Shown: positions 16,276-47,617 of the stretch, one piece after another
How the letters are laid out: each line of letters begins with the position of its first letter
Position numbering within the stretch: position 1 is the stretch's first letter
Assembly: GCA_002842095.1 (NCBI GenBank)
Contig: PHCB01000019.1
Location: 1 to 48,138 of the forward strand
DNA length: 48,138 bases
Source: a candidate division BRC1 bacterium HGW-BRC1-1
GTDB taxonomy: Bacteria; Sumerlaeota; Sumerlaeia; Sumerlaeales; Sumerlaeaceae
Reading direction: 5' to 3'
The notes under the pieces: generated by a model
What the model saw: only the letters and a program-made list of their open reading frames with translations
What the model was told of the DNA's origin: nothing
The model's database searches: none
Made by a program: the position numbers and the translations under genes

Positions 16276-16298
16276 GATGGAATACGGACATTCAGATA

Positions 16299-16317
16299 AA
16301 AACCGTCTGAAAACCGT
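16299..16317 (-). promoter_or_regulatory. Direct repeat upstream of purL
   Basis: AAAACCGT occurs at 16299-16306 and again at 16310-16317, exactly 11 bp apart. That is one helical turn, 24-42 nt before the purL ATG. The spacing suits a dimeric regulator bound to one face of the DNA. No regulator is identified. Confidence 0.3.
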
Positions 16318-16327
16318 TAACGCCTCC

Positions 16328-16381
16328 TCGGGGGATGTCAGTAGATCTCGCCCCCGATACAGGCTTGGCTCCCCCGCCTGT
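16328..16381 (-). terminator. Two hairpins between glnB and purL
   Basis: TCGGGGG (16328-16334) pairs perfectly with CCCCCGA (16351-16357), and ACAGGC (16359-16364) pairs with GCCTGT (16376-16381). They lie 46-99 nt after the glnB stop. No T-run follows, so they may end glnB transcripts or stabilise the 3' end. Confidence 0.35.
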
Positions 16382-16426
16382 TCAAGTTCTTTTCACGTCG
16401 TTTGACGGCGGCTATCCCGAAATCCC

Positions 16427-16855
<429 letters not shown>

Positions 16856-24786: not shown

Positions 24787-24825
24787 GATTCCTGAAAGTC
24801 CAGTCGACCCATTTCAACAGGAATC
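24787..24825. promoter_or_regulatory. Inverted repeat in the purC/lipoprotein divergent region
   Basis: GATTCCTG (24787-24794) and CAGGAATC (24818-24825) form a perfect 8-bp inverted repeat with a 23-nt gap, placed 53-91 nt before the purC start. It is a candidate operator for the purine operon. It is not the E. coli PurR box. Confidence 0.3.
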
Positions 24826-24884
24826 GCTCAGGTCGCACTCTTCTTTCATTTTTCCCTTTGCCGGAGGAGACGGAGGTGTGCCAG

Positions 24885-25331
24885 ATGTCTGCTTCCATCA
24901 CTTGTCCCCTCGGAGATAACGACTTCATGATTCTCGCGCGCTGGCGCTCCCGCTCCATGCTTTTCGTCCTTCTGCCATTGTTGGCAGGCTGTGCTGGTCG
25001 AGGTTCTGAACCTATTGCTAAAGGCCCGGCGACTCCCTCGGGCCCTCGCTTAACCATCACCGTGGGAAATCGTGGACGCCAAACGGAGCGCTTTGTGGTT
25101 CGAGTGGACGATAAAAATGTTTTCGATGCCACGGTTGCACCGGGTCAGACCCGTTCGGTGGATCCTCTTCCGTTAAAAAAAGGATGGGTTAAGGTTAATA
25201 CTAAGACCGATTCTGGTATCAACCATCAGGCCATGGTTGAAGGCAACCGGGACAAATGGGTTCGCATCCTTCGCGAACCGACAAAACCCGAAGGAGTCGG
25301 GGTTCACATCACCGAATATCCTGTTCGATGA
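24885..25331 (+). CDS. Putative lipoprotein of unknown function
   Basis: A 148-residue protein with a lipobox: a basic stretch ARWRSRS, the hydrophobic core MLFVLLPL and LAGC, where Cys would be lipidated. The mature part is a small beta-rich domain (LTITVGNRGRQTERFVVRVD, then FDATVAPGQTRSVD). Its spacing is like an immunoglobulin-like periplasmic fold. GGAGG lies 8 nt before the ATG at 24885. The in-frame ATG at 24927 gives a shorter, more typical signal with Cys22 and is a real alternative. Its stop overlaps the MFS gene start by 4 nt (ATGA), so the two are coupled. The name of the family is not recognised. Confidence 0.7.
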   Translation: MSASITCPLGDNDFMILARWRSRSMLFVLLPLLAGCAGRGSEPIAKGPATPSGPRLTITVGNRGRQTERFVVRVDDKNVFDATVAPGQTRSVDPLPLKKGWVKVNTKTDSGINHQAMVEGNRDKWVRILREPTKPEGVGVHITEYPVR

Positions 25332-28592: not shown

Positions 28593-29744
28593 ATGCTCAT
28601 ACGATTCCTGAAACTCCGTGCATCAGTTCTTCCTGCGATGTTTGCCGCATCTCTGATCGTCTTTTCGGGCGCTCCAATTCAGGGGCAACCCATGCCTGCG
28701 GCTGCGGAAAAGTTGCTACAGGACCCCGAGATAGGACAGTTGCGTGACCACGGCATTGGCTTGGATGCTCCATCGCTGATCAGACTGCTTGAGATAGGAT
28801 TGTCCGACGAAGTACGGAAATCGATGCCAGACAAGCCCTCGGAAAAATCTCAGCTCGCAGTCTATGCCATGGCACGGTTGGCATCAGCCAAGTCTGAAGC
28901 GGCACTTCCGGCTCTCCTCGGAATTGCCGCAATGAATCCTCCTGCAGGCGTTGAAAGTCTGCTGAAATATGACACAGAACAGACAAGCCCCGAAAGCCGG
29001 ACAGAATTTCGAATTCGAGCATTAAAGCTCCTGCAATTCAATGCAGTGAACGCCCTCGGTATCATTGGCGACACTGCGGCCCTGGCTGTGGTCCGCGCCG
29101 TTTTTCAGCAGGAACAACATCCTGCGGCGCGCATCCAGCATGCGATCAGTCTGGCCAGCCTTGGCGACTCCGGTGGAGTGGATTTTCTGGTACAGGTCAT
29201 CAGCGCTGAAAACCGCCGCGAAAGCGCTGCCGCAGCGCGGGCCTTTTTTATCATCACCGGCCAGGATTTCGGTTACACCGAAAATACCGCCGCAAAGAAA
29301 CGGGGTGGCATAGCGGCGGAGTACGCCAACTGGTGGCGACAAAATGCTGGTAACTTTCAAGTGGACCGCGACGCCGTGGCAAAACGCCGCTACGAGCCGA
29401 CACCCATGCCATCTTTTCAACCCCGTAACACTCGCGACCTGATCAAGCTGTCGGCATACTATTTCGACTTTAAGAACCAGTTCCGCACCTACGAAGCGCG
29501 GAGCCAGATTGCAAACGCGGGCAAGCGGCTGAACAATGATTTGTTGGAATTGATGAACGACGATTCGGAAGACATCGACGTTCGCGCCGAGGCGATGAAC
29601 TGGTACTATGAGTTCAATAAAACGGATGCCCGCAAAGCATTGCGCGGACTGCGTAAAGCGTCCGACCCGGAAATTGCAGATAAAGCAAATGCGTTGCTCG
29701 AGCAAATCGAGATCGACGAGACCAACTTCCGCGATCCGAACTGA
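28593..29744 (+). CDS. Exported HEAT-repeat-like protein
   Basis: A 383-residue exported protein. The signal peptide is visible (KLRASVLPAMFAASLIVFSG, cleavage near residue 31). The mature region is nearly all helical, with HEAT-like pairs such as ALKLLQFNAVNALGIIGDTAAL, IQHAISLASLGDSGGVDFLV and DVRAEAMNWYYEFN. Such solenoids bind partner proteins; the partner is unknown. The ATG immediately follows the prepilin peptidase stop (TAA-ATG) and has AGAGGAGA upstream, so the genes are co-translated. The O-antigen-ligase-like gene follows by 13 nt. A scaffold role in a pilus, secretion or envelope assembly is possible but only inferred from position. Confidence 0.8.
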   Translation: MLIRFLKLRASVLPAMFAASLIVFSGAPIQGQPMPAAAEKLLQDPEIGQLRDHGIGLDAPSLIRLLEIGLSDEVRKSMPDKPSEKSQLAVYAMARLASAKSEAALPALLGIAAMNPPAGVESLLKYDTEQTSPESRTEFRIRALKLLQFNAVNALGIIGDTAALAVVRAVFQQEQHPAARIQHAISLASLGDSGGVDFLVQVISAENRRESAAAARAFFIITGQDFGYTENTAAKKRGGIAAEYANWWRQNAGNFQVDRDAVAKRRYEPTPMPSFQPRNTRDLIKLSAYYFDFKNQFRTYEARSQIANAGKRLNNDLLELMNDDSEDIDVRAEAMNWYYEFNKTDARKALRGLRKASDPEIADKANALLEQIEIDETNFRDPN

Positions 29745-42730: not shown

Positions 42731-43933
42731 CTATGCCGTCGCGGACAGAGACTTCGCAATAGCCACCGCGCATTGACGAGAATCCAACCGCCACGCTATA
42801 AGCGCACCAGTGACAGCAACCGCCACAGCAATCATCAGCGCCGGGACAAAGCTGTTAGTGGCGTCGAAAACCATGCCGCCCACCACAGGGCCGAGAATTC
42901 CTGACAAACCATATAGAAGGAAGATCAACGGATATACCGATGCGAATTGCTCGACGCCAAAGCGTTCTGAAATTTGCGCGGCATAAACGACGAAACAGGC
43001 ACCGAAACCGAATCCGCAGATAAGGGAACCGATCAAGAAAGACGCGGCACCGCCGTTGGATACCGCATTTAGTGTAATCGCTCCTGCCAGGACCAGCAGG
43101 GATGCCGGAATGCAGAGTTTGCCCCAGCGATCAACCATGCCGCCCCAGATAATACGACCAGTTCCATTCCCGACAGCAAAGAGACTGATGGCTAACATGG
43201 CGAATTCAGGAGCGACATTTGCAGCCAGACCTATCTCGCGCAAGTTTCCGATTACCATCAGGCCGGCAAAGGTGCCGCTGAACATCCCCACAGCCGGAGC
43301 AGCGAAAGCGCGCGAGCGCAGAATCTGGCTCAGGTTTTTGGGGAAACTTTTGCCATGGTTATCCGTACTGGAGGGATGGCGCGGCATGACGAGTATGAGC
43401 GAAGCCGGCACGACCAGAAGAGTGATCAACAACCCGACCCAGCGGAAGATATGCATGGTCGGAACTCCTGCCGCCTGAAGCGATCCAATCAGCCATGAAA
43501 GCCCGATTCCCCCGCCTCCGAAACCGCATACTGTCAGGCCTGTAATGAGTCCTCTGTGATGAGGAAACCAACGCAAGCAAACTGCGATGGGGCAAACATA
43601 AGCCAGGCCGATACCGATTCCTCCCACAACACCGACTCCCAGAAGAAGAGATATAAACGATCCGCTTCCGAAGGATGCGAGCAGGTAACCCAGCCCAAGG
43701 GTCAGTCCGCCTGTTCCGGCAATCCATCGAGGAGAAATTCGACCCAGCCAACGTCCGGCGGGAACCATCGCGATGGTAAACACCGCGATAGTTACGCCGA
43801 AAACCGTTTGGCATTGAGCCGACGTCAGACCGAATTCCTCACGCAACGCCGGAACGAACGCGCTCCAGGCGTACACGCCTCCCAGACAGAACGAGATGAG
43901 AATTGAACTGAGAAGGATGAGGATACGATGCAA
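42731..43933 (-). CDS. MFS transporter, OFA (oxalate/formate antiporter-like) family
   Basis: A 400-residue carrier with twelve hydrophobic segments. The N-terminal SFCLGGVYAWSAFVPALREEFGLT and the following TVFGVTIAVFTIAMVPAGRW are typical of the OFA family, whose known members exchange oxalate and formate or other small carboxylates. FRWVGLLITLLVVPASLILVMPRHP marks the central loop. MVDRWGKLCIPASLL is the second-half loop motif. Substrate is inferred only from family. The start lies 4 nt after the stop of the P-loop protein gene, so the two are one operon and probably work together. Confidence 0.83.
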   Translation of the reverse strand: MHRILILLSSILISFCLGGVYAWSAFVPALREEFGLTSAQCQTVFGVTIAVFTIAMVPAGRWLGRISPRWIAGTGGLTLGLGYLLASFGSGSFISLLLGVGVVGGIGIGLAYVCPIAVCLRWFPHHRGLITGLTVCGFGGGGIGLSWLIGSLQAAGVPTMHIFRWVGLLITLLVVPASLILVMPRHPSSTDNHGKSFPKNLSQILRSRAFAAPAVGMFSGTFAGLMVIGNLREIGLAANVAPEFAMLAISLFAVGNGTGRIIWGGMVDRWGKLCIPASLLVLAGAITLNAVSNGGAASFLIGSLICGFGFGACFVVYAAQISERFGVEQFASVYPLIFLLYGLSGILGPVVGGMVFDATNSFVPALMIAVAVAVTGALIAWRLDSRQCAVAIAKSLSATA

Positions 43934-43937
43934 CCGG

Positions 43938-45830
43938 TCACTCCGAGGGAAGAATGTCAGCGTATTCCTCCACAGATGCTCCGTTCAGGCACATCTCAAT
44001 GATGCGCCGACCGAGCGGGTCAAGATCCGGTTCTTGCAGATATGGGCTGAGTTCTTCTTTGAAGAACGCCGTCAGGAGGGCTGCCCCGGCGTCGTATCCG
44101 TCTGTACCCACTTCGCGTTGCTTCTCAACTTCCAGAAGCCACTGGGCGATCTGAGATCCTTCGATGAGCATGGACGCCATGGCGAAACCCAAAAGAGGGC
44201 AGCGTGATGGCGTAATCTGATCGGGCCGGAAACGGGCTCCGCCACGGCGGGCAAGGTACTCCCGGGCAATCCACTGCGGCATAAACCCTACCTTCCATGC
44301 GCCAATGTGTTGATTGGGCGAGAGGGTGAAGCGTGTGCGGGGATTATCCACAATCTGGCGCAGAAGGAGATTTGCCTGGTCAACCTTGCGACCCGTCGAG
44401 AAGGGCCAGTAACTACCCACGCCTTCACTGGAGAGCCCTTTGGATTCGGTGATGCTCGGGTTGGAATCTCCACGGGGCGAGACCAACCGCCACAACCATC
44501 CAAGCGAACGAGGCAGATAATGCATCATGCCAACAATTCCATAGGATGGATTGTCGCGCGTGCAGACCGGCGTGCGGACACCAAAGCTGCGCACATCTAC
44601 CTCAACAGGACCATCAACAACATTGGGTACGTGACCACGAGGCAGAACAACACGAGGATTCGGGCATGATTTTCCGGGGGCGTCTTGAACGTGTTCCCAC
44701 ATAAGGCAAGTTGCATTGGGCACGCCTTCAATGTTGAGGAAGAGAATCGGTTCGGGGGGATGTACGCAGAGAGCTTCGTAATTGGGGTCCACTCCGTAAT
44801 GGTCGATGTGGTTCACGCGAAGGAACCAGGCCTGCTCGGCATCGGTCACAACGAGCTTGCCGTTATTGCCCTGATCATGAGGCAGACAAAGAGCCATGTC
44901 GTCGGTTACGGGGCGCAACTCGCATCCCTGGTTCAGAGTGAGAAGTCTTTTTTCACGAGAAATTACATTCTCACCAATCAGCAGACGTCCGTCCCTTTCA
45001 CGATGAGGGTATTCGAGCATCTCGCTCTTGCCGCTGCCACTGGCACCTTCGTGCATGATGGTGAGAATGTTGTCATACGGGGTGACAACCTGCACGGTGC
45101 TCCCGTGGGCGGTGAGCCAACCTTCGCTTTCGCCGATGGCTAATAAGACGCCATAAACACCCTTCTTGGCGCTGGGACCGGGATACAGGTTTAACGAGAA
45201 CAACTCGTGCATCTCTTCGCGGCGATTGTGGACGACAATCTGACGCCCTTCGGCATGGGTATGGCGGAAGGGAGGGGCCACAAAGATGATTGCCCGAGGA
45301 GAGAAACCATCCGGAATTTCATCGCCGGGAACCATGCCTTGCAGGTCGGCCAGAGCGCCTGCAAAAAAGCCGGCATTGGCGGGAGCAATCAACAGTGCGT
45401 CATAACCGGGGTCCATGTTGCCGGCGCAGAACGCGAGAACGATCAGTTCCTGCTTGGACAACCAGGCGAGAATCTCTTCACGCAGCGGGTCGAACTCGGT
45501 TTTGAAACGGTCGTGAAAGCGTTCCTTGTCTGATGGGCTATCGTCGGCGATGAGCATGCAATCCGGGTCGCGCCGACGCATATATTTGTCCGGGTAATTA
45601 ACGGCCAGACCATTACGACACTTCACCACTTCTGCCTCAACAACCCGACCTTTTCCGGGAACGTCATAAGCAACTTCAAAAGTGGTGGCATCGGGACCGC
45701 CCATGGCCAACTCGAACAATTCTGCGCGACTGTGGGGCATGTGGACTTTGGGAGAGGCTTTTAAAACTGCTGCGACCTCTTTGGGTAATTTTACGTTTGA
45801 TGCAAAGCCTACGCTTAGATTCGTGGTCAT
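43938..45830 (-). CDS. Uncharacterised P-loop protein, PEPCK/HprK-like (probable DUF4914 family)
   Basis: A 630-residue soluble protein that I tentatively place in the DUF4914 family; no member has a known function that I am aware of. The clearest motif is a Walker A, EGASGSGKSEM (about 261-271, with G262, K268 and S269), flanked by hydrophobic strands (NILTIMH before it). The GxSGxGKSE form resembles HPr kinase/phosphorylase and PEP carboxykinase rather than ordinary ATPases. An acidic pair D310/D311 in PVTDDMALCLP could be the metal site. Further conserved-looking stretches are FLNIEGVPNATCLMWEHV and HIGAWKVGFMPQWIAREYLARRG (split). It is followed after 4 nt by an OFA-type carrier. A terminator hairpin lies 39-92 nt before its start. 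Confidence 0.72.
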   Translation of the reverse strand: MTTNLSVGFASNVKLPKEVAAVLKASPKVHMPHSRAELFELAMGGPDATTFEVAYDVPGKGRVVEAEVVKCRNGLAVNYPDKYMRRRDPDCMLIADDSPSDKERFHDRFKTEFDPLREEILAWLSKQELIVLAFCAGNMDPGYDALLIAPANAGFFAGALADLQGMVPGDEIPDGFSPRAIIFVAPPFRHTHAEGRQIVVHNRREEMHELFSLNLYPGPSAKKGVYGVLLAIGESEGWLTAHGSTVQVVTPYDNILTIMHEGASGSGKSEMLEYPHRERDGRLLIGENVISREKRLLTLNQGCELRPVTDDMALCLPHDQGNNGKLVVTDAEQAWFLRVNHIDHYGVDPNYEALCVHPPEPILFLNIEGVPNATCLMWEHVQDAPGKSCPNPRVVLPRGHVPNVVDGPVEVDVRSFGVRTPVCTRDNPSYGIVGMMHYLPRSLGWLWRLVSPRGDSNPSITESKGLSSEGVGSYWPFSTGRKVDQANLLLRQIVDNPRTRFTLSPNQHIGAWKVGFMPQWIAREYLARRGGARFRPDQITPSRCPLLGFAMASMLIEGSQIAQWLLEVEKQREVGTDGYDAGAALLTAFFKEELSPYLQEPDLDPLGRRIIEMCLNGASVEEYADILPSE

Positions 45831-45868: not shown

Positions 45869-45922
45869 AAAACAAAAAGGCCGGAATTCCAATTCCTTCG
45901 TGGGGATCGGATTTCCGGCCTT
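45869..45922 (-). terminator. Intrinsic terminator downstream of the 48-codon gene
   Basis: On the minus strand a perfect 10-bp stem (AAGGCCGGAA at 45922-45913, TTCCGGCCTT at 45886-45877) with a structured 26-nt loop is followed by TTTTTGTTTT. It begins five bases after the small gene's stop and lies in front of the P-loop protein gene. It may also work as an attenuator of that gene. Confidence 0.8.
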
Positions 45923-45927
45923 CTTCG

Positions 45928-46074
45928 TCACCCGACCATAAAATCAAGATCGTGAGGCGTTGCCTGCTCGGCTTCATAATCATCTCTCAGGCGATGGGAT
46001 AAACTCTCCGGAGCTGAAGAATTTAACTCATCGAAACCGCCCTCGGCGAAAGCCGCCTGCGGAATCTCTCCCAT
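45928..46074 (-). CDS. Small acidic protein, 48 residues, unknown
   Basis: An open frame of 48 codons starting with ATG (46074-46072), with an in-frame TAA 18 nt upstream. It ends at TGA only five bases before a strong intrinsic terminator. The product begins MGEIPQAAFAEGGFDEL and ends PHDLDFMVG. It has 11 Asp/Glu against 2 Arg and no Lys, Cys or Trp, so it is very acidic. It has a likely short helix (PESLSHRLRDDYEAEQ). There is no signal peptide or membrane segment. No good Shine-Dalgarno site is seen, which lowers confidence, though many genes in this window also lack one. It could be a free small protein or a leader peptide acting on the following terminator and the P-loop gene. I know of no homologue. 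Confidence 0.6.
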   Translation of the reverse strand: MGEIPQAAFAEGGFDELNSSAPESLSHRLRDDYEAEQATPHDLDFMVG

Positions 46075-46134: not shown

Positions 46135-46161
46135 AAAAAAATGTAAAAGCGATCTTCCGCT
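46135..46161 (-). terminator. Weak terminator candidate after the DUF2294 gene
   Basis: On the minus strand AGCG-GAAGAT-CGCT is followed by TTTTACATTTTTT. The stem has only four pairs, so it is a weak call. It lies 19 nt after the DUF2294 stop. Confidence 0.3.
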
Positions 46162-46179
46162 CTGTTTCTCAACAGAACC

Positions 46180-46563
46180 TCAAATGGTTTCTTCCACCAC
46201 CGGTGCACCATCTAATGTGAAAACAATGATGCGTTCGCCGGTGCGGATGCTGATGTCAGTGTGAAGGCTGACGACTCGCCTCCCCGTGATGGAATTCACG
46301 ATTTCTTCGAGGAGAGGACGGCCTCGTTCCAACAATTCGATGCGCACCTGCTTGATGAGGTCGCTGCTGCGGGTGCCGGCGCTGTCTTTCGCAAGGTGTT
46401 TTTCGGCGGGAGTCAGCACGCCTCGCAGACGCACAAGCAAGAGATCGCCGATGAGATGTGTGCGTGCATCCTCGGGGCCGCGCCCCATGTAATCCTTCTC
46501 AAATTTAACGATGGCGTCGCTGATCTCGGATTCGATCTGACCGTTGGTTTTTCTGTTCGTCAT
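46180..46563 (-). CDS. DUF2294 family protein
   Basis: A 127-residue soluble protein matching the DUF2294 pattern. FEKDYMGRGPEDARTHLIGD (21-40) has the conserved GRGP, GVLTPAEKHLA (48-58) follows, then RPLLEEIVNSITG and the end HTDISIRTGERIIVFTLD (101-118). The family is widespread and poorly characterised; some members have been linked to sodium- or membrane-associated stress responses, which I cannot confirm. The ATG at 46563 starts homology, and the longer frame adds about 42 unrelated residues. It is divergent from the 311-residue protein gene and upstream of the 48-codon gene, all at the end of an uncharacterised cluster. Confidence 0.82.
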   Translation of the reverse strand: MTNRKTNGQIESEISDAIVKFEKDYMGRGPEDARTHLIGDLLLVRLRGVLTPAEKHLAKDSAGTRSSDLIKQVRIELLERGRPLLEEIVNSITGRRVVSLHTDISIRTGERIIVFTLDGAPVVEETI

Positions 46564-46681
46564 TGTTCGCTTATAGAACTCGGTGAGATTCGAGGATGCA
46601 AGAACGGCATTTACCCAATCCATGAATGCTTGACTTTCTCCTGACCGGAGGCCTGCGTGCTGGGTCACTGGAGAATTGTAT

Positions 46682-47617
46682 ATGAACATTCCGCACTATT
46701 GGGCCCGAGCCGAAATGGAAGGCCGAAACCGTCAGGGTGACGTATTGCCCTTCATCGCCTGGGGATCCTCTGACCAGAGTGACAGTGATGCACGACGCCA
46801 AGCACAACATAACGTGGAACAATTGGTCGCGCGGTACCAGTCGGGAGATAAGTTTCCCGACCGCGGGCAGTATTACGGGGGCGATCGGCCATTGCGGGAA
46901 GAAATTTTGCAGGAGTTCTCTCCGGGGGACAATCCCGACTCGGCGATTGTGACGCGGAATTCTTATGGGTGTTCGGTGCTTAATGCAGCCCGTTTGATGT
47001 TCATCGACATCGACCTTCCTTCATTAGCAACAGATGCCACCCTGGGCGATGCGATGGGCATGCTGGCAAGGTTCGGGCGGAAGCTCTTCGGAGGAGGTTC
47101 CAAGGAATCTGACAGACCAACCACTGAGAATAGTGAGCAAGGCATGTCTCACCGGGAATTGGCTGTTATCGAAAAAGCACGGCAATGGACAAACCTCCAT
47201 GCAAACTGGGGTTTCCGCGTCTACCGTACTGCGGGTGGGTTGAGGCTGCTTGCCATCCACGACTTCTTCGACCCTCAAGGGTCAGCCGCCGCAGAGGTCA
47301 TGAACACTCTGGGGGCTGACCCCATGTACATGCGCTTGTGTCGTTCACAAAATTGTTTTCGTGCACGGCTGACTCCGAAGCCGTGGCGGGTAGGTGTTCA
47401 ATCGGCCTTTTTTCGACATCCATGGAAGGGAACGAGTAACGAGGGCGCGGCTCGTGATTGGCTCAGACAATACGAATATGCGTGTCAACAAGCACAGACC
47501 TGCCAGCACTTGGCCAATATTGGAAGAGACAAGGTTGCCCAGGAATTGGAAACGCTGGTCACATTTCACGATGAAGCCACAGGTGCTGTTAACACGACAC
47601 TTCGAAAACTCGCCTGA
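46682..47617 (+). CDS. Conserved protein of unknown function with a DxD motif
   Basis: A 311-residue soluble protein. I recognise the overall pattern as that of a conserved but uncharacterised bacterial protein: MNIPHYWARAE at the start, DRPLREEIL (68-76), VTRNSYGCSVLNAARLMFID (90-109) and VYRTAGGLRLLAIHDFFDP (180-198), followed by LGADPMYMRLCRSQNCFRAR (210-229) and LTPKPWR (230-236). The strand ending in D109-I-D111 followed by YRTAGGLRLLAIH recalls the hhDhD and glycine/His motifs of archaeo-eukaryotic primases, but this is only a resemblance. A variable Gly/Ser/Glu-rich insert lies at about 130-155. The ATG at 46682 is preferred to the TTG at 46676. Carbamate kinase follows 11 nt downstream. 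Confidence 0.75.
   Translation: MNIPHYWARAEMEGRNRQGDVLPFIAWGSSDQSDSDARRQAQHNVEQLVARYQSGDKFPDRGQYYGGDRPLREEILQEFSPGDNPDSAIVTRNSYGCSVLNAARLMFIDIDLPSLATDATLGDAMGMLARFGRKLFGGGSKESDRPTTENSEQGMSHRELAVIEKARQWTNLHANWGFRVYRTAGGLRLLAIHDFFDPQGSAAAEVMNTLGADPMYMRLCRSQNCFRARLTPKPWRVGVQSAFFRHPWKGTSNEGAARDWLRQYEYACQQAQTCQHLANIGRDKVAQELETLVTFHDEATGAVNTTLRKLA

Follow-up and report, generated by a model that had tools for sequence, protein, structure and literature searches.

Genes and signals at the locus

The window, by which we mean the whole analysed stretch of 48,138 nucleotides, is a complete contig from an uncultured Sumerlaeota bacterium. It carries on its minus strand the gene order MpsC, a gap of 349 bases, DUF4914 and an MFS transporter. 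The gap extends from the MpsC stop at 46180 to the DUF4914 start at 45830 and contains the following elements, listed together with the flanking genes in the direction of transcription:

46180..46689, minus strand: MpsC family gene, upstream of the 48-codon frame and on the same strand (PF10057, E 3.2e-37)
46140..46178, minus strand: weak hairpins and a T-tract, a possible weak MpsC terminator (-11.1 kcal/mol, z -0.77)
45928..46074, minus strand: orphan frame of 48 codons, ATG to TGA, reading MGEIPQAAFAEGGFDELNSSAPESLSHRLRDDYEAEQATPHDLDFMVG followed by the stop; no SD motif, no homologues
45870..45923, minus strand: strong intrinsic terminator with a 10-bp outer stem, an inner stem and the U-tract TTTTTGTTTT; folding energy -31.9 kcal/mol
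43938..45830, minus strand: DUF4914 gene, downstream of the frame, with a P-loop motif (PF16260, E 0)
42731..43933, minus strand: MFS transporter gene, following DUF4914 at a spacing of 4 bases (PF07690, E 3.6e-35)

The pair of a P-loop protein and a transporter that the original prediction had placed downstream was confirmed by the Pfam matches to DUF4914, which holds the P-loop motif, and MFS. The gap had also been described as the only one above 300 bases in the window. This is roughly right: mechanical gene calling leaves five such gaps, and the other four hold genes or longer frames, namely a P-II gene in 16276-16639, a HEAT-repeat gene in 28593-29607 and longer overlapping frames across 769-1213 and 24813-25255.

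The MpsC gene was detected in only four other genomes of the phylum and in none of the seven other genomes of the same family. It shares 66% identity with a counterpart in a genome of another family (G016), and this combination suggests horizontal transfer or repeated loss. Since none of the four belongs to the same family, a syntenic comparison starting from MpsC could not be drawn. At 46676-47617 lies a gene for a 313-residue protein of an uncharacterised family, which gave no Pfam, NCBIfam or PHROG match and has relatives in eight other Sumerlaeota genomes at 33-44% identity.

The terminator and the transcript it may close

The firm element of the locus is its minus-strand Rho-independent terminator, a strong signal that is real and ordinary. 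The arms of its outer stem, AAGGCCGGAA and TTCCGGCCTT, pair over 10 bp and enclose the inner stem, and the U-tract follows directly after the stem as CC-TTTTTGTTTT. The sequence thus offers the stable G+C-rich hairpin with a U-tract right behind it by which Rho-independent terminators are recognized. The folding energy of -31.9 kcal/mol compares with a mean of -14.4 kcal/mol for shuffled sequences (z -5.95), bearing out the terminator with a 10-bp stem and a T-run that had been predicted five bases past the stop codon of the frame. A simple terminator scan missed this hairpin; the scan permits only loops of 3-8 bases directly within one unbroken stem.

The hairpins directly behind MpsC being weak (z -0.77), it may well be the strong one that effectively terminates this gene. 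Transcription arriving from the MpsC side would end there, about 39 bases before the DUF4914 start codon, and the DUF4914 and MFS genes would be insulated from it. With a terminator in front of them, these two genes would need a promoter of their own, presumably in or just past the hairpin.

A strong terminator within a gap of 349 bases could also mark the end of a small non-coding RNA. We regard this as improbable, since the body of such an RNA folds no better than its shuffles (z -0.82) and Rfam, at gathering as well as permissive thresholds, returned only microRNA-like matches to the hairpin, which did not rise above chance.

Coding signals and conservation of the 48-codon frame

The features read from the frame in the original prediction were confirmed by the sequence: it runs from ATG to TGA over 48 codons, an in-frame TAA precedes its start by five codons, five bases separate its stop from the hairpin, and its product contains 11 D/E and 2 K/R residues. 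We compared this arrangement with dinucleotide shuffles of the gap. An ATG frame of at least 48 codons on any strand arises in 15% of the shuffles, and the proportion falls to 0.95% if the frame is to lie on the same strand and end within 12 bases of the terminator. When ATG, GTG and TTG are all allowed as starts, 3.8% of the shuffles contain a same-strand frame next to the terminator.

The rarity of this coincidence, about 1% by shuffles, speaks for a functional, lineage-specific and acidic small protein whose gene has a terminator of its own; this product would be helical and partly disordered, 48 residues long and translated without a strong SD motif. The composition of the frame points in the same direction. 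Compared with 727 intergenic frames of 40-99 codons taken from 1.2 Mb of the same genome, its amino-acid composition is protein-like, with a score of 0.97 that is reached by 1.5% of the intergenic frames and by 0.3% of wrong-frame frames; its codon model score of 0.88 is reached by 4% of intergenic frames. By both models jointly it ranks about 20th of the 727, in a region where true genes and spurious-looking frames are mixed. PurS was confirmed among the top-ranked frames, which also include the ribosomal proteins L23 and L29, presumed true genes that we recognised by eye. In the same 1.2 Mb, 17 intergenic frames have a terminator-like hairpin no more than 15 bases from their end, and only two of them exceed 0.85 on both models: the orphan frame and a conserved membrane protein of 48 residues. 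The third-best (L203, 52 codons, TTG start) scores 0.81 and 0.80, and the others are lower. Single-sequence AlphaFold predicts helices at residues 14-19, 25-37 and 40-43 of the product.

Against a small protein stands the choice of synonymous codons, which is neutral. The synonymous codon score of the frame is -0.16 compared with a mean of +0.17 for real gene segments, placing it at the 3rd percentile, and its synonymous codons fit a null model of local base composition (P 0.31); genome-like codon choice, judged on the synonymous part only, was therefore not found. GC3 minus GC2 amounts to +0.06 compared with +0.22 in the genes of this genome. No SD motif precedes the frame, which is also true of most long genes here, the motif being present in 27% of ATG-started long frames over a background of 11%. 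A promoter-like (sigma-70-like) site was not detected between 45000 and 47000. The structural model has a mean pLDDT of only 65 and a pTM of 0.28, and is too weak for a fold search.

Relatives of the frame, whose absence the original prediction had named as grounds for refutation, did not turn up in 39 further Sumerlaeota genomes (seven of the same family, none congeneric), nor among GTDB r220 contigs in an 8-mer-seeded search that is sensitive to close relatives only. The IMG/VR, plasmid and phage collections gave none either, and the same holds for PDB, Pfam, NCBIfam and PHROGs, Pfam remaining empty even at E 10. This result argues against a gene. Searching 41 genomes with the DNA of the gap yielded only chance matches of 16-45 bases, many of them stacked near codons 5-16, where the sequence is GC-rich. 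The conserved 48-residue membrane protein, taken as a positive control, was recovered by the genome search used for the orphan product in five of the seven same-family genomes (E ≤ 3.3e-9), so that a family-conserved gene of 48 residues would probably have been seen, which lends some weight to the orphan status of the frame. As the search set contains no congeneric genome, a gene restricted to the genus would escape it.

The control gene (L120:10481-10627; G000:C4:10481-10624) encodes a single-pass membrane protein. It has the same length as the orphan frame, and its terminator lies similarly close, six bases past the stop; in contrast to the acidic orphan product without relatives, however, its product is hydrophobic and conserved in the family.

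The original prediction had taken the layout of frame and terminator as that of a complete mini-gene. The layout holds, but the status of a gene is not established, relatives being absent from the collections searched. Since no relatives, start signals or syntenic counterpart were found, and since the codons are neutral, we read the frame as more probably a non-gene: the terminator probably closes the transcript from the MpsC side, and in the transcribed spacer before it the frame would be non-functional, a product of chance or a coding stretch that has decayed or is very young. The functional small protein described above is a reading we hold to be possible but on balance doubtful. Its narrower form, a recently born, genus-restricted acidic protein of no known family in Sumerlaeota that possesses its own terminator, is rather unlikely in our view. 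The locus as a whole is most likely ordinary. These weights express our judgement and not a computed posterior.

Non-conserved intergenic small ORFs described in bacteria resemble the orphan frame in having about 50 codons, no clear SD motif, a weak GC3-over-GC2 skew and no visible purifying selection; their translation was measured, whereas the orphan frame is known here from sequence alone (PMC9094748). Most of the short translated frames newly detected in Mycobacterium tuberculosis show no sign of purifying selection (PMC9094748), so that detected translation alone would not prove function. Little hangs on the frame; if translated, it would add another small orphan protein to those of an uncultured phylum.

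One form of the preferred reading, a non-functional frame in the spacer, is that it represents the last part of a longer gene that has decayed but retained its original terminator. A protein-like composition together with relaxed codon choice would fit such a remnant, as would the most promising of its weak matches, 25 residues (DELNSSAPESLSHRLRDDYEAE) resembling the C-terminal lid found in MoxR ATPases (PF17863); at 6.8 bits it lies above every scored shuffle. The match was chosen post hoc from 41 genomes, however, and is not significant (E 0.7-0.9); Pfam gave no match for the product, to PF17863 or otherwise, even at the permissive threshold, and the own genome offers a single chance DNA match of 25 bases to the gap. 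We therefore consider decay from a longer gene unlikely. The MoxR genes of the same genome sit on other contigs. A specific MoxR/AAA_lid_2 remnant was rejected as a post hoc candidate with no significant profile match, whose two supporting hits are not independent, both belonging to family f6.

The region upstream of DUF4914

The order of frame, terminator and, 39 bases on, a structural gene is also that of a leader peptide and attenuator governing DUF4914 and MFS, as had been proposed. We consider this very improbable, because alternative pairings are weak and the frame lacks a run of regulatory codons. The best competing pairings of the hairpin arms reach -11.2 to -13.5 kcal/mol compared with -27.8 kcal/mol for the terminator, the 5' arm stays largely unpaired until the 3' arm is made, and no mutually exclusive antiterminator was found at the hairpin. 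The absence of both a competing hairpin and a codon run contradicts the leader peptide.

The DUF4914 gene also occurs in one of the same-family genomes (G001). A terminator lies within 60 bases upstream in 9 of 90 DUF4914 loci compared with 4.7% of control genes, and these terminators share neither a position nor a leader frame; a conserved attenuator upstream of DUF4914 is thus unsupported. No small ORF like the orphan frame was found upstream of DUF4914 in about 90 loci of relatives, and the relatives read directly showed no counterpart of the gap. The suggestion that the product is an interaction partner of the DUF4914 and MFS proteins gained no support, a similar frame near DUF4914 not being found elsewhere.

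Two of the loci, both from Omnitrophota (L035 and L045), have in common a terminator-like stem, GCCAACAT...ATGTTGGCTTTT, located 20-40 bases before the DUF4914 start, which may be a small leader element conserved in that Omnitrophota group.
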